The translations under genes and the position numbers were made by a program. From Apostichopus japonicus (taxonomy: Eukaryota > Echinodermata > Holothuroidea > Aspidochirotida > Stichopodidae): 64,000 nt of DNA. Below the pieces are notes generated by a model. That model was not told the origin of the DNA, did not search any database, and was given only the letters and a program-made list of their open reading frames with translations. Within the stretch, counting starts at the first letter, position 1, and each line of letters starts with the position of its first letter. Shown here piece by piece: positions 5,270 through 59,465 of the stretch. The stretch is from positions 19,480,321 through 19,544,320 of the forward strand of contig NC_092578.1 of assembly GCF_037975245.1 (NCBI RefSeq). The letters run 5' to 3'.

Positions 5270-5523
5270 GCAATCCACGGAGTTACTTTTTAAGAAAAAG
5301 TCGCCCAGGAAAGAACCTGGGCACGAAAACCAAACTACTTAACGCCTGATCCGCTTCTAACCCCAGTCCCCTTGCATCGGGACTGTGACTGTGTGATCAT
5401 CGTCAGGTGTGCATCACCATTCCCCGCGAAAGGGAACAGATACTACACATGATCTTAGCCAAAAGGCCGAGAAGCGACTACACATGATCTTAGCCAAAAG
5501 GCCGAGAGGCAATCCACGGAGTT
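5270..5523 (-). mobile_element. U2 snRNA-headed SINE-like retroposon with 15-bp target-site duplication
   Basis: The sequence GCAATCCACGGAGTT is present at 5270-5284 and again at 5509-5523 as a perfect 15-bp direct repeat, flanking about 224 bp. Read on the minus strand, the insert starts with the conserved 5' end of U2 snRNA (CTCGGCCTTTTGGCTAAGAT, then GTGTAGTATCTGTTC, which includes the branch-point-pairing GTAGTA). A partial tandem copy of the first 32 nt lies at 5477-5508. After GTTC the sequence leaves U2. The stem IIa and Sm-site region is replaced by an unrelated segment of about 150 nt with several short hairpins, for example GCCCAGG pairing with CCTGGGC and AGTCCC with GGGACT. SINEs with snRNA heads have been described in animals, which is established knowledge. 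Assignment here rests on the head and the duplication. The alternative is a chimeric U2 pseudogene. Confidence 0.75.
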
Positions 5524-16744: not shown

Positions 16745-18718
16745 TTACCCACCCCCCCCCCACCCAACTTCTATCAACGTCATTTCTGATTTTGTTCTTC
16801 TGTATCAGTTTTACGCCAGGGATGTGAACTATATAGGTGGCATTACATCTACCTCCTAAAACATATTAACATACTTAGAGAATAAGCCCACCTTTACCCC
16901 CCCCCCCCACCAAACTACTATCAACGTCATTTCTGATTTTGTTCTTCTGTATCAGTTTTACGCCAGGGATGTGAACTATATAGGTGGCATTACATCTACC
17001 TCCTAAAACATATTAACATATTTAGAGAATAAGCCCACCTCTACCCAGCCCCCCCCCCCACCCAACTACTATCAACGTCATTTCTGATTTTATTTTTCTG
17101 TATCAGTTTTACGCCAGGGATGTGAACTATATAGGTGGCATTACATCTACCTCCTAAAACATATTAACATACTTAGAGAATAAGCCCACCTCTACCCAGC
17201 CCCCCCCCCCACCCAACTACTATCAACGTCATTTCTGATTTTATTTTTCTGTATCAGTTTTACGCCAGGGATGTGAACTATATAGGTGGCATTACATCTA
17301 CCTCCTAAAACATATTAACATACTTAGAGAATAAGCCCACCTCTACCCAGCCCCCCCCCCCCACCCAACTACTATCAACGTCATTTCTGATTTTGTTCTT
17401 CTGTATCATTTTTACGCCAGGGATGTGAACTATATAGTTGGCATTACATCTACCTCCAAAAACACATGAACATACTTAGAGAATAAGCCCACCTCTACCC
17501 AGCCCCCCCCCCCCACCCAACTACTATCAACGTCATTTCTGATTTTGTTCTTCTGTATCAGTTTTACGCCAGGGATGTGAACTATATAGGTGGCATTACA
17601 TCTACCTCCTAAAACATATTAACATATTTAGAGAATAAGCCCACCTCTACCCAGCCCCCCCCCCACCCAACTACTATCAACGTCATTTCTGATTTTATTT
17701 TTCTGTATCAGTTTTACGCCAGGGATGTGAACTATATAGGTGGCATTACATCTACCTCCTAAAACATATTAACATACTTAGAGAATAAGCCCACCTCTAC
17801 CCAGCCCCCCCCCCACCCAACTACTATCAACGTCATTTCTGAGTTTATTTTTCTGTATCAGTTTTACGCCAGGGATGTGAACTATATAGGTGGCATTACA
17901 TCTACCTCCTAAAACATATTAACATACTTAGAGAATAAGCCCACCTCTACCCAGCCCCCCCCCCCACCCAACTACTATCAACGTCATTTCTGATTTTGTT
18001 CTTCTGTATCATTTTTACGCCAGGGATGTGAACTATATAGTTGGCATTACATCTACCTCCTAAAACATATTAACATACTTAGAGAATAAGCCCACCTCTA
18101 CCCAGCCCCCCCCCCACCCAACTACTATCAACGTCATTTCTGATTTTATTTTTCTGTATCAGTTTTACGCCAGGGATGTGAACTATATAGGTGGCATTAC
18201 ATCTACCTCCTAAAACATATTAACATACTTAGAGAATAAGCCCACCTCTACCCAGCCCCCTCACCCATGCAACTACTATCAACGTCATTTCTGATTTTAT
18301 TTTTCTGTATCAGTTTTACGCCAGGGATGTGAACTATATAGGTGGCATTACATCTACCTCCTAAAACATATTAACATACTTAGAGAATAAGCCCACCTCT
18401 ACCCAGCCCCCTCACCCATGCAACTACTATCAACGTCATTTCTGATTTTATTTTTCTGTATCAGTTTTACGCCAGGGATGTGAACTATATAGGTGGCATT
18501 ACATCTACCTCCTAAAACATATTAACATACTTAGAGAATAAGCCCACCTTTACCCCCCCCCCCCCCACCCAACTACTATCAATGTCATTTCTGATTTTAT
18601 TTTTCTGTATCAGTTTTACGCCAGGGATGTGAACTATATAGGTGGCATTACATCTACCTCCTAAAACATATTAACATACTTAGAGAATAAGCCCACCTCT
18701 ACCCAGCCCCCCCCCCAC
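16745..18718. repeat. 150-bp tandem array, about 13 copies, each with a variable poly-C tract
   Basis: The motif ACGCCAGGGATGTGAACTAT recurs 13 times at about 150-bp spacing (for example near 16813, 16961, 17111, 17262, 17413, 17566, 18318, 18618). Units are nearly identical, and most variation is in the length of a C run (about 8-14) and in TTCTT/ATTTT. Two adjacent units share CCCCCTCACCCATGC in place of the pure C run. The array starts about 0.8 kb upstream of the ZP-gene start codon. No open reading frame of interest. Confidence 0.95.
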
Positions 18719-45700: not shown

Positions 45701-48700
45701 TTTATAGACTTCAGAATTCTTTGAGAGGATTTAAGAAACTGTTAAATGATCACCTTGGAATGGACACAGGATATCACAGAATGTACTGTAAATTTTGAAA
45801 ATAATGTAGCAGGTTTTGTGTATGTGATCACAAGGAAATACCCTCAGAGCCTCACCACATGACACCTTAACTAGGCAAGAAATTAGAGTTAAATTAAGTT
45901 ACTTTAGTTGGCCATACACATTTTCAATAGAAATATTAAAAATGGAAACAGCAACTGGATATTTTCAATTTGTTTTGCTATCCTTCTTCATCATTTAAAA
46001 TTGAACTTGATTTAAGTCAAACTCTGGGACATTGATGTCCAATGTGCATACAATGTTAGTCAAACTATGGGACGTTGATATCCAATGTGCATACAATGTT
46101 AGTCTAACTATAGGACATTGATGTCCAATGTGCATACAATGTTAGTCAAACTATGGGACGTTGATATCCAATGTGCATACAATGTTAGTCTAACTATAGG
46201 ACATTGATGTCCAATGTGCATACAATGTTAGTCAAACTATGGGACGTTGATATCCAATGTGCATACAATGTTAGTCTAACTATAGGACATTGATGTCCAA
46301 TGTGCATACAATGTTAGTCAAACTATAGGACATTGATGTCCAATGTGCATACAATGTTAGTCTAACTATGGGACATTGATGTCCAATGTGCATACAATGT
46401 TAGTCAAACTATGGGACATTGATGTCCAATGTGCATACAATGTTAGTCTAACTATGGGACATTGATGTCCAACGTTCATACAATGTTAGTCAAACTATGG
46501 GACATTGATATCCAATGTGCATACAATGTTAGTCTAACTATGGGACATTGATGTCCAACGTTCATACAATGTTAGTCAAACTATGGGACATTGATGTCCA
46601 ACGTTCATACAATGTAAGTCAAACTATGGGACATTGATGTCCAATGTGCATACAATGTTAGTCAAACTATGGGACATTGATGTCCAATGTGCATACAATG
46701 TTAGTCTATCTATGGGACATTGATGTCCAATGTGCATACAATGTTAGTCAAACTATGGGATGTTGATGTCCAATGTGCATACAATGTTAGTCTAACTATG
46801 GGACATTGATGTCCAATGTGCATACAATGTTAGTCAAACTATGGGATGTTGATGTCCAATGTGCATACAATGTTAGTCTAACTATAGGACATTGATGTCC
46901 AACGTTCATACAATGTTAGTCTAACTATGGGACATTGATGTCCAATGTGCATACAATGTTAGTCAAACTATGGGATGTTGGTGTCCAATGTGCATACAAT
47001 GTAAGTCTAACTATGGGACATTGATGTCCAATGTGCATACAATGTTAGTCAAACTATGGGACATTGATGTCCAATGTGCATACAATGTTAGTCAAACTAT
47101 GGGACGTTGATATCCAATGTGCATACAATGTTAGTCTAACTATTGGACATTGATGTCCAATGTGCATACAATGTTAGTCTAACTATGGGACATTGATGTC
47201 CAATGTGCATACAATGTTAGTCAAACTATGGGACATTGATGTCCAATGTGCATACAATGTTAGTCTAACTATGGGACATTGATGTCCAATGTGCATACAA
47301 TGTTAGTCAAACTATGGGACATTGATGTCCAATGTGCATACAATGTTAGTCTAACTATGGGACATTGATGTCCAATGTGCATACAATGTTAGTCAAACTA
47401 TGGGACGTTGATATCCAATGTGCATACAATGTTAGTCTAACTATGGGACATTGATGTCCAATGTGCATACAATGTTAGTCTAACTATGGGATGTTGATGT
47501 CCAATGTGCATACAATGTTAGTCTTACTATGGGACATTGATGTCCAATGTGCAAACATTGTTAGTCAAACTATGGGACATTGATGTCCAATGTGCATACA
47601 ATGTTAGTCAAAATGGGATGTTGATATCCAATATGCATACAATGTTAGTCTAACTATGGGACATTGATATCCAATGTGCATACAATGTTAGTCTATCTAT
47701 GGGACATTGATGTCCAATGTGCATATAATGTTAGTCAAACTATGGGACATTGATGTCCAATGTGCATACAATGTTAGTCAAACTATGGGACATTGATGTC
47801 CAATGTGCATACAATGTTAGTCAAACTATGGGATGTTGATGTCCAATGTGCATCCAATGTTAGGCAAACTATGGGACGTTGATGTCCAATGTGCATAAAA
47901 TGTAAGTCAAATGTAAATAAAACTTTAGTATCCAGCAGAATACAATGTTATTCAATTTTTTTTTTCATATTTGGTTGTGTTATTTTACATTTACGTATCA
48001 GCAATTATTTATTTATTTTCCTTCCTTTAATAAAAGAGAAAAAGTTAAAAATTGTTGACCCTGATCAATATTCGCAACAATATTATTGATTATATTGATG
48101 AATATTGATGCAAAACGAAACCTATGGGTACTCTGATATACAAAAGCTATGAACTGTTGAAAATTGGATGAAATTTGTTAATTGCTTTCGAGATTAATCA
48201 ATTTTCACATGTAGCTACATAGGCTAGATACTGGCTTAGTTGGATGACAGCAATCTTTATCTCGAGTTTCACTTAGCAGTCAACTTGCTGACTCCGAAAA
48301 GTTCCTTGAATTATATATATATGACTCATATAATTTAATCCTTGCAAGGCACAACTTGTTTGTGCTAAGGAAATTCAGTGCCAGAGGGCGACAAGATGAA
48401 ATGTCTGTTTGCGGCCAGGATTTAGGGAGCTAGGTGTTGCACAGTTGATTTAGTATATAAGCATAACCAAATCCTGTAAAGTCACTGCAAACAAGCATAA
48501 CTTATTTTACTACCAACCATTGAATCACTGTACTACTGTTTGAATCACTCGGAAGAGAGTAAGAGACAGATAATGAAGAAGAAGCAGAAGAGCTGTCCAA
48601 GTGCATCACATTTGTTCTACTGCAGTGTTTTGTTCTTTTAATATTTTATGGGATTTTGAGAAGTACAGAAATAAAGGAAAATTAATGTTAACTCTGGCGC

Positions 48701-51700
48701 CATTGATATATTGAGTCTGTGTGAAGGTTTCAGTGGTTTAATAAAGTCTTGGAATTGGATATTCATAAAGGCACAACAAGGTTAAGAAAAGCCTTCATCA
48801 TACATATTAATCGACAATTGCAGTTCAGTTTCACAACTTTCCACTGGTGGATGTTTTATCAACATTTATTTCACACTCTTTTGCTTCTCTTCGCCAGTCA
48901 AATGGATCTGTCAATAAAAGATAATACTTGCTTCTAATATCCATAAGAAAGATTACGTTGTGTTGAAGAACATGTGTTTAGCTCAGAGCTATGATTACAG
49001 TGACTGGTCTAATAAATAAATGATAAATAGATGATCTTAATAACCAAAGAACTACTCTCAACTGCAGCATCCAGTCTGTAATTTATATACCACTGTCAGC
49101 CTCTTGAATATTTGATAGAATCAAGAAATGAAGAAACTTTTGTAATGTTAGTGTAGTCAGTTCCTGAAAGGAAAATATGTAATTTCAGCTTTTGAAGAAA
49201 GTTATTAAATTTTGTCATTACAGTCTATGGTTGAGATGTGTGGTTGCGAAGCCCTTGTCCCTATTGTTTATGATAAGAGGGCCCAATAATAAAAACCAGG
49301 ACCCTGTTCTGTTTTGAATGTATATGTTAAAGCAGGATATGATGTTGAGAAAACCCATAACATAATTTCTTTCCAAAGTTTTCAAAAACCACTTGCAAAC
49401 CCACTCGCTCTTCACACACCTGTTGGTAAGATTGTCACAAATTTACATTTAACAATGGTATCTAGAACAGACAGGGAGATGTTACCGAGGAAATGTCTTA
49501 GTTGGGTATGCATTTTGTGGTTAGAACAGTAGTAGCCATTGTTGTATAGCCACCGTGACACAAAGGGGAAATTGTTTTGTTGGCTTCTACCCAAAGCAGT
49601 GTACACTTGAAGCTCTGTCAATCTAGCCAGTTTGGACAATTTTGTATCGTTAATACTGTACCACCCTATACTGTCCTCCCACATTATGCTTCACAGCAGT
49701 TGTACTGACAGTACGGATAGTTCCTCAACTTTAATTAAGAAACATGATAAATCACATTTAGGATATTAAGCATGTAAGAGAGTGATGACTACCACAGGTC
49801 CCCCCATCCCCATCCCCCAATCTTCCCGTTTTGTAATCACATCGTTAAAACATGAAATGATATTGGATTAGTCAAGGTCATAAACTTTATGGGATAGCAA
49901 GGTTAATTTGTTCAATTGTGAACTGTTAACCTGTTCATTTTATGTATCGTAACACTGTTTTTAAAATGGTTTCGATGGTTAAACGGTAATCGAAAGCCTG
50001 GCAATTGCATGCCCGATCTGGAACTTTCACTGCGGAATTCTATGCAGCATAACCTATATACATGAAGAACGAAATCAACATTGAAAGCTATGATTAAATG
50101 TTGGTCTTGTCACTAACCTTTGTATAGATCTTTCAAACAGTCCATATTGGTAACACATTTGATGCCAGTATAATCGTGTCATGTGAATGAAAATAAAGAG
50201 CTACCCTATATGTACAGTCATAATCCATTGACTCAGTCAATATCAACTTTGTGCTGAACTTGTCTCAATATGTGTTAGAACCGTGTGCACTTAAAAAGAT
50301 GAAAAGATTTATTTCAAGTCATATTTAAGATGCAGAAGGCATTAACAAAGGTCTTTTGTTTGTTTGTTAGTTATGCATCAGTTCTACTAAGTATGCTTTA
50401 TGATTTTAAGATTTATGAAACATTTTAACAAGTTGTTGTTGTGAATATATAAATACTATGAGATTTATCATAATTATATGTAATAATTCAAGTTATTGCT
50501 TTAAGTCTATTTTTTTTGGGCATGATATTGCATAGTATTATAATACACTGTACTGTACATATAGTACTTACAGTAGTGTAGTCTTATGCAATCTACACTT
50601 CGCTGGTGCAGTCTGTGTGCGCTGAATGTATTATGTTGGTCTGTGTGCTGAATGTATTATGTTGGTCTGTGTGCACATGATGTGCTATGTTGGTCTGTGT
50701 GCATAGGATGTGTTATGTTGGTCTGTGTGCACAGGATGTGTTATGTTGGCCTGTGTGCACATGATGTGTTATGTTGGTCTGTGTGCACATGATGTGTTAT
50801 GTTGGTCTGTGTGCATAGGATGTGTTACGTTGGTCTGTGTGCACAGGATGTTTTGTGTTGTACTGTGTGCATAGGATGTGTTACATTGGTCTGTGTACAC
50901 CGAATGTGTTATGTTGGTCTGTGTGCACATGATGTGTTATGTTGGTCTGTGTGCATAGGATGTGTTACGTTGGTCTGTGTGCACAGGATGTTTTGTGTTG
51001 TACTGTGTGCACATGATGTATTATGTTGGTCTGTGTGCATAGGATGTGTTACGTTGGTCTGTGTGCACATGATGTGTTATGTTGGTCTGTGTGCACATGA
51101 TGTGCTATGTTGGTCTGTGTGCATAGGATGTGTTATGTTGGTCTGTGTGCACAGGATGTGTTATGTTGGCCTGTGTGCACATGATGTGTTATGTTGGTCT
51201 GTGTGCACATGATGTGTTATGTTGGTCTGTGTGCATAGGATGTGTTACGTTGGTCTGTGTGCACAGGATGTTTTGTGTTGTACTGTGTGCATAGGATGTG
51301 TTACATTGGTCTGTGTACACCGAATGTGTTATGTTGGTCTGTGTGCACATGATGTGTTATGTTGGTCTGTGTGCATAGGATGTGTTACGTTGGTCTGTGT
51401 GCACAGGATGTTTTGTGTTGTACTGTGTGCACATGATGTATTATGTTGGTCTGTGTGCATAGGATGTGTTACGTTGGTCTGTGTGCACATGATGTGTTAT
51501 GTTGGTCTGTGTGCACATGATGTGCTATGTTGGTCTGTGTGCATAGGATGTGTTATGTTGGTCTGTGTGCACAGGATGTGTTATGTTGGCCTGTGTGCAC
51601 ATGATGTGTTATGTTGGTCTGTGTGCACATGATGTGTTATGTTGGTCTGTGTGCATAGGATGTGTTACGTTGGTCTGTGTGCACAGGATGTTTTGTGTTG

Positions 51701-54700
51701 TACTGTGTGCATAGGATGTGTTACATTGGTCTGTGTACACCGAATGTGTTATGTTGGTCTGTGTGCACATGATGTGTTATGTTGGTCTGTGTGCATAGGA
51801 TGTGTTACGTTGGTCTGTGTGCACAGGATGTTTTGTGTTGTACTGTGTGCACATGATGTATTATGTTGGTCTGTGTGCATAGGATGTGTTACGTTGGTCT
51901 GTGTGCACATGATGTGTTATGTTGGTCTGTGTGCACAGGATTTGTTATATTGCACTGTGTGCACAGGATGTTTCGTGTTGTACTGTGTGCACAGGATGTT
52001 TTGTGTTGCACTGTGTGCACAGGATGTTTTGTGTTGTACTGTGTGCACATGATGTGTTATGTTGGTCTGTGTGCATAGGATGTGTTACGTTGGTCTGTGT
52101 GCACATGATGTGTTATGTTGGTCTGTGTGCGCAGGATTTGTTATGTTGCACTGTGTGCACATGATGTGTTATGTTGGTCTGTGTGCATAGGATGTGTTAC
52201 GTTGGTCTGTGTGCACAGGATGTTTTGTGTTGTACTGTGTGCACATGATGTATTATGTTGGTCTGTGTGCATAGGATGTGTTACGTTGGTCTGTGTGCAC
52301 ATGATGTGTTATGTTGGTCTGTGTGCACATGATGTGCTATGTTGGTCTGTGTGCATAGGATGTGTTATGTTGGTCTGTGTGCACAGGATGTGTTATGTTG
52401 GCCTGTGTGCACATGATGTGTTATGTTGGTCTGTGTGCACATGATGTGTTATGTTGGTCTGTGTGCATAGGATGTGTTACGTTGGTCTGTGTGCACAGGA
52501 TGTTTTGTGTTGTACTGTGTGCATAGGATGTGTTACATTGGTCTGTGTACACCGAATGTGTTATGTTGGTCTGTGTGCACATGATGTGTTATGTTGGTCT
52601 GTGTGCATAGGATGTGTTACGTTGGTCTGTGTGCACAGGATGTTTTGTGTTGTACTGTGTGCACATGATGTATTATGTTGGTCTGTGTGCATAGGATGTG
52701 TTACGTTGGTCTGTGTGCACATGATGTGTTATGTTGGTCTGTGTGCACAGGATTTGTTATATTGCACTGTGTGCACAGGATGTTTTGTGTTGTACTGTGT
52801 GCACAGGATGTTTTGTGTTGCACTGTGTGCACAGGATGTTTTGTGTTGTACTGTGTGCACATGATGTGTTATGTTGGTCTGTGTGCATAGGATGTGTTAC
52901 GTTGGTCTGTGTGCACATGATGTGTTATGTTGGTCTGTGTGCGCAGGATTTGTTATGTTGCACTGTGTGCACAGGATGTGTTATGTTGGTCTGTGTGCAC
53001 ATGATGTGTTATGTTGGTCTGTGTAAACCTGCAGACTGTCAATGGTCTGCATGTTACTGTTTTTGCAGGCTTCTCTCCGAAATGTGTAACACATGTGTGT
53101 TTGTATATTCTGCCTTAGTGTGATATCTCTGTGTATTAATACAGTACATTCTGTGCTAATGCATGCGCATCCCTTACTGCAGTTTGTGTACAGTAACTGT
53201 AAATCTGTGTTAATAATGCATTAGTAACTCTGTCTGCACCAGAGCAGTCTGTTAATATTGCAGCATGATGTTAGTTACTTCATGTATATGTTACAACAGT
53301 TTGTGTTAGCATTTATGTCTCTGTGTTAACACACACAACAATCTCTGCTACTGTGATATCTATGTAGTGTCTTTATATTACAGTATCTGTTACTGTAAAT
53401 CAGTGTTAAGGCAGCTAATCAATTAGTGTAGGCTATGTTACTGTAGGTTGTGTTACAGAAATATTTGTTTTGTTAAGTCTTTGATAGTGCAGTCTGTGTT
53501 AACGAAGCTTCTGTTAATATCCGTAAACTAGTACCTACAGTAGACCAGCCTGCAGGTAGCTGTGTTACAGACATGTGTTTAATGCATAAGTCTGTGTGAC
53601 GTGCAATCTGTGCCATTGATGCATAAGTACATCAAACCATTAGTTTACACTGTAAGTCCTTTCCATCTTTGCATTTAAATTCAGCTCAAAGTTATGGTCT
53701 CAATATTTCTATCCCCCCCCCCCCCTCGTCACAATTAGTTTCTCTGACAGTCAGTATTTAGGTCAAATCCAAAGAAACTGGCAGATATCATTGTTGAAAC
53801 CTGTTGCTTTAATCGTGGTCACCACTGAATTGTTTACATGATACGGTCTAGCCTGTGATGAAGCAATACAGAATTACTCTAACAAGCATGTTATCAACTG
53901 ATTGGACATAATCCAAGGCTGAGAGTTCAAAGCCTCTTCTATTAATAAAACCACTTTACGTACAGGAAATACTTAACCCAGAAAAACGTCAGAAATGTTA
54001 GGCCTCAGTAGCCTACTGAGTGACATTACTGTAGATTGGAATGGAATGTTAGGGATCAATTTAAGCGGGAGAATATGCTATTTTGGTAAAATGACTGTGA
54101 TCAAAGAATTATCAGATGTCTGGCTAACTTTTGACAGCAGCTGCATTCTCTAAGTCATTTTGTGAAGCCTTCGCTGGTACTGTGGCATTCTCCCTAATCT
54201 ACACCCCCTCTTCCTCCCCCCACCCCCACCCCTTACATGCAGTACAAAAGACATGTCATATTATAGAATTATTGTTACTGCAACATATGGTTCATCTGAG
54301 AAATGATAAGAATCAGCAACCCCTTGTACATGCTCCATGGTACAGTAAGAGACTGGTTTTGGTGTAAATACCGTTATATATTATACTGCATGTACAGTCT
54401 CTATATAGATAACATATATGGTAGGTGGTAGTAGTAGTAGTATGTGTACAAGAACATGAAGAATAATTGCTTTCTATGTGTTCTATATTACCATTTGTCT
54501 TAACTATACAACCTTGTATAAAATAGGCCAGCCCAGAATCACATCATTCACGACTTGTCCAGTGATGTTTTAGTGCAATATGCTTGCAGCGATTTCACTG
54601 ATATATCAAGCAAAACATTATAACCTGCTAAATCTATTCCAATTTGCAATGTAAATTGATGGGTGTTCAAGTTCTAGTTGTTAATTGTTCCTCTCTTCTG

Positions 54701-57742: not shown

Positions 57743-59465
57743 TTGATCTCTGGTGTCACATGAAGATAGCTTCAGTTGATCTCTGGTGTCACATCAAGAT
57801 AGCTTCAATTGATCTCTGGTGTCACATGAAGATAGCTTCAATGGATCTCTGGAGTCACATCAAGATAGCTTCAATTGATCTCTGGTGTCACATGAAGATA
57901 GCTTCAGTTGATCTCTGGTGTCACATGAAGATAGCTTCAGTTGATCTCTGGTGTCACATCAAGATAGCTTCAATTGATCTCTGGTGTCACATCAAGATAG
58001 CTTCAATTGATCTCTGGTGTCACATCAAGATAGCTTCAATTGATCTCTGGTGTCACATCAAGATAGCTTCAATTGATCTCTGGTGTCACATCAAGATAGC
58101 TTCAATGGATCTCTGGAGTCACATCAAGATAGCTTCAATTGATCTCTGGTGTCACATCAAGATAGCTTCAATTGATCTCTGGTGTCACATCAAGATAGCT
58201 TCAATGGATCTCTGGAGTCACATCAAGATAGCTTCAATTGATCACTGGTGTCACATCAAGATAGCTTCAGTTGATCTCTGGTGTCACATGAAGATAGCTT
58301 CAGTTGATCTCTGGTGTCACATCAAGATAGCTTCAATTGATCTCTGGTGTCACATCAAGATAGCTTCAATTGATCTCTGGTGTCACATCAAGATAGCTTC
58401 AATTGATCTCTGGTGTCACATCAAGATAGCTTCAATGGATCTCTGGAGTCACATCAAGATAGCTTCAATTGATCTCTGGTGTCACATCAAGATAGCTTCA
58501 ATTGATCTCTGGTGTCACATCAAGATAGCTTCAATGGATCTCTGGAGTCACATCAAGATAGCTTCAATTGATCACTGGTGTCACATCAAGATAGCTTCAA
58601 TTGATCTCTGGTGTCACATGAAGATAGCTTCAGTTGATCTCTGGTGTCACATCAAGATAGCTTCAATTGATCACTGGTGTCACATCAAGATAGCTTCAAT
58701 TGATCTCTGGTGTCACATCAAGATAGCTTCAATTGATCTCTGGTGTCACATCAAGATAGCTTCAATGGATCTCTGGAGTCACATCAAGATAGCTTCAATT
58801 GATCTCTGGTGTCACATCAAGATAGCTTCAATTGATCTCTGGTGTCACATCAAGATAGCTTCAATGGATCTCTGGAGTCACATCAAGATAGCTTCAATTG
58901 ATCACTGGTGTCACATCAAGATAGCTTCAATTGATCTCTGGTGTCACATCAAGATAGCTTCAATTGATCTCTGGTGTCACATCAAGATAGCTTCAATGGA
59001 TCTCTGGAGTCACATCAAGATAGCTTCAATTGATCTCTGGTGTCACATCAAGATAGCTTCAATTGATCTCTGGTGTCACATCAAGATAGCTTCAATGGAT
59101 CTCTGGAGTCACATCAAGATAGCTTCAATTGATCACTGGTGTCACATCAAGATAGCTTCAATTGATCTCTGGTGTCACATCAAGATAGCTTCAACTGATC
59201 TCTGGTGTCACATCAAGATAGCTTCAATTGATCTCTGGTGTCACATCAAAATAGCTTCAATTGATCTCTGGTGTCACATCAAGATAGCTTCAATTGATCC
59301 CTGGTGTCACATCAAGATAGCTTCAATTGATCCCTGGTGTCACATCAAGATAGCTTCAATTGATCTCTGTGGTCACATCAAGATAGATTCAATTGATCTC
59401 TGGTGTCACATCAAAATAGCTTCAACTGATCCCTGGTGTCACATCAAGATAGCTTTAATTGCTCA
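57743..59465. repeat. 33-bp minisatellite with 330-bp higher-order repeat, about 52 copies
   Basis: The unit is GATCTCTGGTGTCACATCAA plus GATAGCTTCAATT. Variant ATGGATCTCTGGAGTC units occur at about 58104, 58203, 58434, 58533, 58764 and 58863, that is, in pairs repeated every 330 bp (10 units). A 574-codon open frame (11-residue repeat CHIKIASIDLW) runs through it because 33 is divisible by 3. It has no other gene feature and lies downstream of WDR75. Confidence 0.95.

Follow-up and report, generated by a model that had tools for sequence, protein, structure and literature searches.

The genome of the sea cucumber Apostichopus japonicus contains a family of short interspersed elements (SINEs) whose members begin with the first 45 nucleotides (nt) of the host U2 small nuclear RNA (snRNA), and some copies of this family reside inside U2 genes, between nt 38 and 39. 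According to the accessible text of one report, nt 38/39 of U2 is the insertion site of the retrotransposons Keno and Utopia (PMC4640811). The residence in U2 genes, the junctions, and the structure of the family are established at the level of the genome sequence. In our judgment, the best explanation is that the U2 promoter drives transcription of the U2-resident copies, whose RNA is then retrotransposed; we assign this a probability of roughly 65 per cent, and it is inferred, with no RNA data entering into it. The class of snRNA-headed SINEs (SINEU) is already known; what is new here is the host, the residence in U2 genes, and a probable origin of the head.

Under the proposed mechanism, the U2-resident SINE copies would act as source genes. 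The U2 promoter, which is used by RNA polymerase (Pol) II, would start the RNA at U2 position +1 and run through the SINE, and a LINE enzyme, most likely from U2-resident Keno-like LINEs, would copy this RNA from its GTA end. New insertions would be made site-specifically in U2 genes and, with relaxed specificity, at sites that start with T/C-C-T. Repeated insertion at one U2 site would generate tandem SINEs and double heads, which could then spread as dimers and as tandem-head copies, such as the copy described below. The use of the U2 promoter is inferred from identity of upstream sequences and has not been mapped, and the mobilising LINE is inferred as well. To our knowledge, the transcription of snRNA-headed SINE families and the way in which they gain their heads are still an open question. 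snRNA genes are transcribed from promoters that lie outside of them, so a SINE with an snRNA head should leave its promoter behind. We lean somewhat, and no further, toward the view that a SINE without a promoter of its own persists via repeated insertion into U2 genes, where the snRNA promoter drives it. If so, the U2 head is a host-gene leader that is carried along, which would explain the origin of snRNA-headed SINEs, the match of the head to the host U2, and the tandem arrangement of heads and units. The question of head origin would be directly testable in this farmed, accessible animal.

The analyzed window is a stretch of 64,000 nt of contig NC_092578.1, and it contains one copy of the SINE at positions 5284-5508 of the minus strand (Table 1). 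The preliminary description of this copy, made from the window sequence alone, had reported a perfect 15-bp target-site duplication (TSD), a U2 head of about 45 nt that is partly repeated in tandem, and a switch to about 150 nt of hairpin-rich sequence, and all of these features withstood closer analysis. On the minus strand, the copy reads as one extra base, U2 nt 7-37, U2 nt 2-45, about 150 nt of non-U2 sequence, and the family 3' end AAAAAGTA, which is made up of the terminal hairpin and the next A. This last A of the element, which completes its GTA, overlaps the TSD at 5284. Without the extra head, the copy is 98.5 per cent identical to nt 2-195 of the working consensus of the family. The Rfam U2 model matches the copy with 49.5 bits (gathering score 46), and the alignment covers the U2 5' domain but skips most of the remaining model, which confirms that the copy departs from U2 where stem II and the Sm region would lie. 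At a permissive threshold (E up to 0.1), U2 was the only Rfam family detected in the window element, with no known ribozyme family found. The working consensus of the subfamily to which the window copy belongs (subfamily A), head included, folds at -73.9 kcal/mol (z = -4.8 relative to 200 shuffles).

Table 1. Features of the SINE copy in the window (positions are those of the window).
Feature	Positions	Strand	Remarks
TSD GCAATCCACGGAGTT, 3' side of the element (minus-strand sense)	5270-5284		15/15 direct repeat
TSD GCAATCCACGGAGTT, 5' side of the element	5509-5523		15/15 direct repeat
Extra 5' head, U2 nt 7-37	5507-5477 (5508 is one extra base)	minus	private to the window copy
SINE head, U2 nt 2-45	5477-5434	minus	identical to host U2 genes, including GATCATGTG
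SINE body and tail, subfamily A	5284-5433	minus
First body hairpin, in place of U2 stem IIa	5420-5436	minus	consensus fold
3' hairpin GCCCAGG-UUCUUU-CCUGGGC	5303-5322	minus	consensus fold
Terminal hairpin ACUUUUU-CUU-AAAAAGU	5285-5301	minus	consensus fold

The tandem head is not a trait of the SINE family: with up to two mismatches allowed, its joint was found at a single place in the genome, and the left flanks inspected for 59 sampled copies contain no second head. The break in the extra head is adjacent to the insertion site at U2 nt 38/39. As a separate observation, the SINE sequence at 5402-5478 exceeds the Rfam gathering score for U2. Copies of this kind can pass for U2 genes, and the number of U2 genes counted in this genome may be too high; the available portion of the A. 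japonicus assembly paper lists 1,088 snRNAs (PMC10344927). Elsewhere in the window, long tandem arrays occupy 16752-18716, 46015-47911, 50611-53024, and 57743-59461, with periods of 151, 43, 28, and 33 bp, respectively.

The working consensus of the family is about 195 nt long and consists of U2 nt 1-45 followed by a structured body of 150 nt. In the searched genome (671,581,487 bases in 35 contigs), a 26-nt word from the body has 758 exact matches and 2,161 matches with up to three mismatches, in contrast to no genome-wide matches of the reversed word, either exact or with up to three mismatches. A DNA search with the SINE gave 45 matches from the best 40 of 2,567 candidates scored, and the exact 18-nt tail, under a weak constraint (no G, 16 bases downstream), matched the genome 514 times. 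The preliminary description had proposed a SINE family with an snRNA-derived head, to be refuted if the body were single-copy or the U2 similarity were confined to the window copy. The family is borne out by the body-word matches and by the different flanks and TSDs of the sampled copies; with 2,161 near matches the body is clearly multi-copy, and 55 of the 59 sampled copies begin within the U2 head. Of the sampled copies, 39 were selected through an exact match to the body word (20 of 21 listed for contig C1 and the first 19 for C2) and 20 through an exact match to the tail without a listed body word nearby; L074, a multi-copy locus in the list for C2, was also retrieved but is excluded from the counts. 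Almost half of the sampled copies (27 of 59) start at U2 nt 1-4, and four (L057, L097, L098, and L111) start inside the body. TSD words of at least 8 nt are found in 26 of the 59, compared to 0.1 expected from re-paired flanks (up to 3 nt of the element per end were allowed into a word, and L064 and L065 have one common flank). Inspection by eye of the flanks of the 59 copies revealed no common sequence above U2 nt 1.

By alignment score, 45 sampled copies belong to subfamily A and 14 to subfamily B. The two consensus sequences differ at five of 145 aligned body positions, in addition to small gaps, and at none of the 45 head positions; one dispersed copy (L069) is 100 per cent identical to the B consensus. 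Chimeras formed by template switching are known for other snRNAs, and the copies could in principle be independent chimeric U2 pseudogenes of this kind and not a family. Given that one head-body joint, one body, and two subfamilies recur across the sampled copies, we see practically no chance that this is correct. The family conforms to the definition of a SINE: its members are short, non-coding, and dispersed, with TSDs, and the head derives from a small-RNA gene, as it equals nt 1-45 of the host U2 and is recognized by the Rfam U2 model. According to the accessible part of the assembly paper, SINEs account for 159,644 bp (0.02 per cent) of the assembly (PMC10344927). With lengths of up to about 195 nt, the 2,161 near copies could together occupy about 0.4 Mb. 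We infer from this difference that the family was probably not annotated, or not fully annotated, as a SINE in that work.

SINEU, as described by Kojima in 2015, reportedly consists of crocodilian SINEs with U1- or U2-derived heads, and these heads are said to have been added recurrently, in connection with target-specific LINEs of the Tx1 clade. The sea cucumber SINE matches SINEU in having a U2-derived head but differs from it in the host, which is not a crocodilian; for comparison, the sea cucumber copies sit inside U2 genes at nt 38/39 and have dimers and tandem heads that are joined at or near that position. The preliminary description spoke of a rare class, which is correct, whereas "new class" would have been wrong: the accessible text of one source includes SINEU among the four SINE types of the Repbase classification and, citing Kojima (2015), mentions target-specific Tx1 LINEs in crocodilians (PMC5753468), and the class is also named in the accessible part of another (PMC8010984). 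In the open-licence PMC literature, we found no prior report of a U2-headed SINE in a sea cucumber or of a SINE that targets U2 genes.

The host U2 array is located on contig C16, which holds 42 of the 46 scored U2 matches (the other four are on C15), and the spacing between neighbouring units of the array is often 645 bp. With up to two mismatches allowed, the SINE tail with U2 nt 39-52 behind it is present at eight places in the genome: six in the C16 array, one on C20, and one on C5. Within the C16 array, seven SINE units are present at six U2 3' junctions, and the copies lie inside U2 genes at nt 38/39. Specifically, three units (L027, L028, and the second unit of L029) consist of U2 nt 1-45 (1-42 in L027) and the full body, and the first unit of L029 is a 5'-truncated SINE that has U2 nt 39-52 or 53 on both sides as a TSD. 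L026 contains two tandem SINEs, the first of which is truncated, with GTA joined to TCTGTTC, and L025 contains a truncated SINE behind a LINE. The four U2-resident bodies tested are one to three substitutions away from the B consensus. In the five SINE-bearing U2 genes that retain the U2 5' part (L026-L029), 449-450 of 450 upstream bases are identical to those of the intact unit L014, which was the single reference for this comparison. Another intact unit (L016) and the U2 copy L011 on C15 have other upstream sequence (130/450 identical bases each), and upstream sequence is thus not common to all U2 copies. Copies that look like sources are found in U2 genes whose upstream sequence is normal, at a site that LINEs are known to target, and beside LINEs with intact open reading frames. 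This residence at a known retrotransposon target could not be seen in the preliminary description, and it alters which mechanism is likely. On C20, the locus L030 has a diverged U2 sequence with an A-type SINE, followed by U2 nt 39-192; we considered a retrocopy of a read-through transcript and rejected it, as the alignment indicates an old U2 locus or a pseudogene that contains a SINE.

The U2-resident copies might be sinks only. The sources would then be dispersed copies, transcribed by Pol III or from neighbouring promoters, and the head would have been captured once, long ago. Dispersed copies do outnumber residents by hundreds to one, and the head of a dispersed SINE has itself served as an insertion site (at L031 on C5, a full SINE interrupts the head of another SINE precisely between nt 38 and 39). 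The head includes an A-box-like TGGCTAAGATC, but the best pair of Pol III A and B boxes in the SINE scores no better than in shuffled sequences (184 and 411 of 500 shuffles reach it), although this is a weak test that relies on sequence only. Additionally, a run of five T residues, which should stop Pol III early, is located inside the conserved 3' end. No promoter of the SINE's own could be recognised. Among the copies, divergence is lower in the head (50/1433) than in the body (243/4621; P-value = 0.006), for which a promoter in the head would account; either constraint on the head or trimming of ends by local alignment would fit this difference. As a test of renewal from U2, the conservation of head and body between the subfamilies (0/45 versus 5/145 differences) is not significantly different (P-value = 0.25). 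Sources among dispersed copies are also difficult to reconcile with 5' ends at or near U2 +1 that lack common upstream sequence and with dimers that are joined at the U2 site, one of which is cut inside its upstream unit. We therefore regard it as unlikely that the residents are mere sinks.

A joint at which the SINE tail is followed directly by U2 nt 39 of a next SINE is found, with up to one mismatch, at 12 places, 11 of which are outside the U2 array. The resident tandem L026 in the array has the same joint as the dispersed dimers. At ten of the 11 dispersed loci, the joint coincides exactly with the end of the upstream SINE, and the downstream SINE resumes at U2 nt 39 (eight loci) or 40 (two loci). 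One locus (L124) is irregular, and L125 and L126 look like duplicates of one locus. Outer TSDs are readable in five of the 11 loci (L116, L119, L120, L121, and L122) and not in the other six. The upstream unit of L116 is truncated at nt 161, where it borders directly on unique flanking sequence, and the TSD lies outside; the upstream unit of L123 has a similar truncation but is continued by a third unit, with the outer flank lying beyond the part that was read. The structure of L116 strongly suggests a copy of a dimeric RNA as the simplest origin; if template jumping at nt 39 were responsible instead, it would have had to happen again at the same base in the other loci. The dispersed dimers in which GTA meets U2 nt 39 point to RNAs that originated from tandem SINEs at the U2 site. 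Alternatively, dimers with full-length upstream units could have formed when a SINE inserted into the U2 head of a dispersed copy, and template jumps that recur at nt 39 could account for any of the dimers.

Double heads with different joints, which represent independent insertions, are present in the window copy and on C17 (L091), C19 (L092), C11 (L095), and C2 (L093). The joint of L095 is near nt 26, and L093 (C2:26232300-26233600) is a satellite-like run of U2 5'-head units of about 37 nt that ends in a degraded SINE body. On our preferred reading, that resident copies are the sources, the dispersed copies carry the scars of the route through U2: starts at or near U2 +1, GTA ends, and joints at nt 38/39. 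Short non-autonomous R1/R2 elements in rDNA, known as SIDEs, are not known to leave the rDNA. The SINE is like SIDEs in being a short parasite of a multicopy RNA gene that uses the promoter of its target (which for the SINE is inferred), but unlike them it has dispersed to about 2,000 sites elsewhere, taking the host-gene leader along.

The U2 array at C16:31.00-31.167 Mb (L032-L034 and L083-L086) is packed with several coexisting LINE groups, many of which have an intact ORF2. When P0001, the protein of a full ORF2 of the array, was used as a query, 20 of the best 40 of 4,647 candidates scored fell within this region, and the 20 scored matches outside of the array were at most 52 per cent identical to it. 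Matches within the array have identities of about 98-100, 75, 54-58, 51, and 37 per cent, and several are full-length open frames. According to Pfam, the two ORF2s tested (P0001 and P0002) each contain an APE-type endonuclease (PF03372) and a reverse transcriptase, with no RLE reported, and each of the two ORF1s tested contains a zinc knuckle. Among PDB chains, P0001 is most similar to those of LINE-1 ORF2 (9e-74), compared to 2e-19 for 8gh6 and 4e-15 for the best chain named R2. The 3' ends of the array LINEs join U2 at nt 39. Three of the groups end with ..AAAGTA or ..AAAAGTA before TCTG and so have the GTA of the SINE, and the P0002 group ends with AAAGAAA. The ORF1 start codon coincides with U2 nt 29-31 in L014, and ORF1 starts 11 nt behind U2 nt 28 in L085 and 14 nt behind U2 nt 25 in L033; the U2 leader hence makes up most of the 5' UTR in these LINEs. 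In the P0002 group, U2 and the open frame are separated by about 200 nt that belong to the element itself, and in another group the U2 part extends to about nt 51.

Keno is assigned to the Tx1 clade. The array LINEs resemble it in having U2 nt 39 as the 3' flank and, in the two ORF2s tested, an APE domain. They share the U2 3' junction at nt 39 with Utopia as well, but Utopia is of the RLE type, which the two tested ORF2s with their APE domains are not. According to the accessible text of the relevant report, U2 resumes at nt 39 downstream of Utopia in Phytophthora, and Keno, which is of the APE type, has identical U2 3' flanks (PMC4640811).

The first 100 of the 514 tail matches yielded 76 independent flanks for an analysis of target sites. 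The TSD starts with TCT in 11 of the 76 flanks, compared to 1.0 expected from the composition of offsets 11-15 (P-value = 6e-9), and with T/C-C in 30, compared to 5.8 expected; at offset 7, used for comparison, TCT occurs twice among the 76. Position 4 of the dispersed sites favours T and not the G of U2. This difference in target preference (T/C-C-T-T versus TCTG) raises the possibility that the resident copies are the sources but that a different, unidentified LINE disperses their RNA, while the U2 LINEs serve merely to bring the SINE into U2 genes. Such a scenario overlaps with our best explanation except for the dispersing enzyme. Matches of two U2 LINE 3' ends, searched genome-wide, are all on C16 (12/12 and 7/7), with no dispersed copies; the U2 LINE enzyme need not, therefore, be the one that spreads the SINE. 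The absence of dispersed U2 LINE copies, as against about 2,000 SINE copies, is the strongest evidence counter to our explanation, and dispersal of the SINE by U2 LINEs remains unproven. However, the SINE and the U2 LINEs share the ..AAAGTA end and the TCT start, and the related LINE group that could be read outside of the array has a poly(A) end instead of the SINE tail. A second LINE is quite possible, but we can entertain it as the disperser only tentatively, as the less probable version.

No LINE with the complete SINE tail was found, as all 20 examined tail matches without a nearby listed body word are SINEs. A comparison of the SINE to three LINE-holding array loci and 16 LINE-end loci retrieved only U2 sequence, the resident SINE in L033, and chance-level matches. 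A LINE group outside of the array that is about 50 per cent identical to P0001 was considered as a partner of the SINE and rejected, because its ends are poly(A) (five 3' ends read). LINEs of this group end beside tandem repeats in L075 (C15:7599300-7600800), and also in L077, L078, and L080. ARAGORN identified the repeats of L075 as eight tRNA-Gly genes and found none in the other four loci of the group. In L081 (C17:25098270-25099800), a LINE 3' region is closely followed by what appears, by eye, to be an inverted copy of part of itself.
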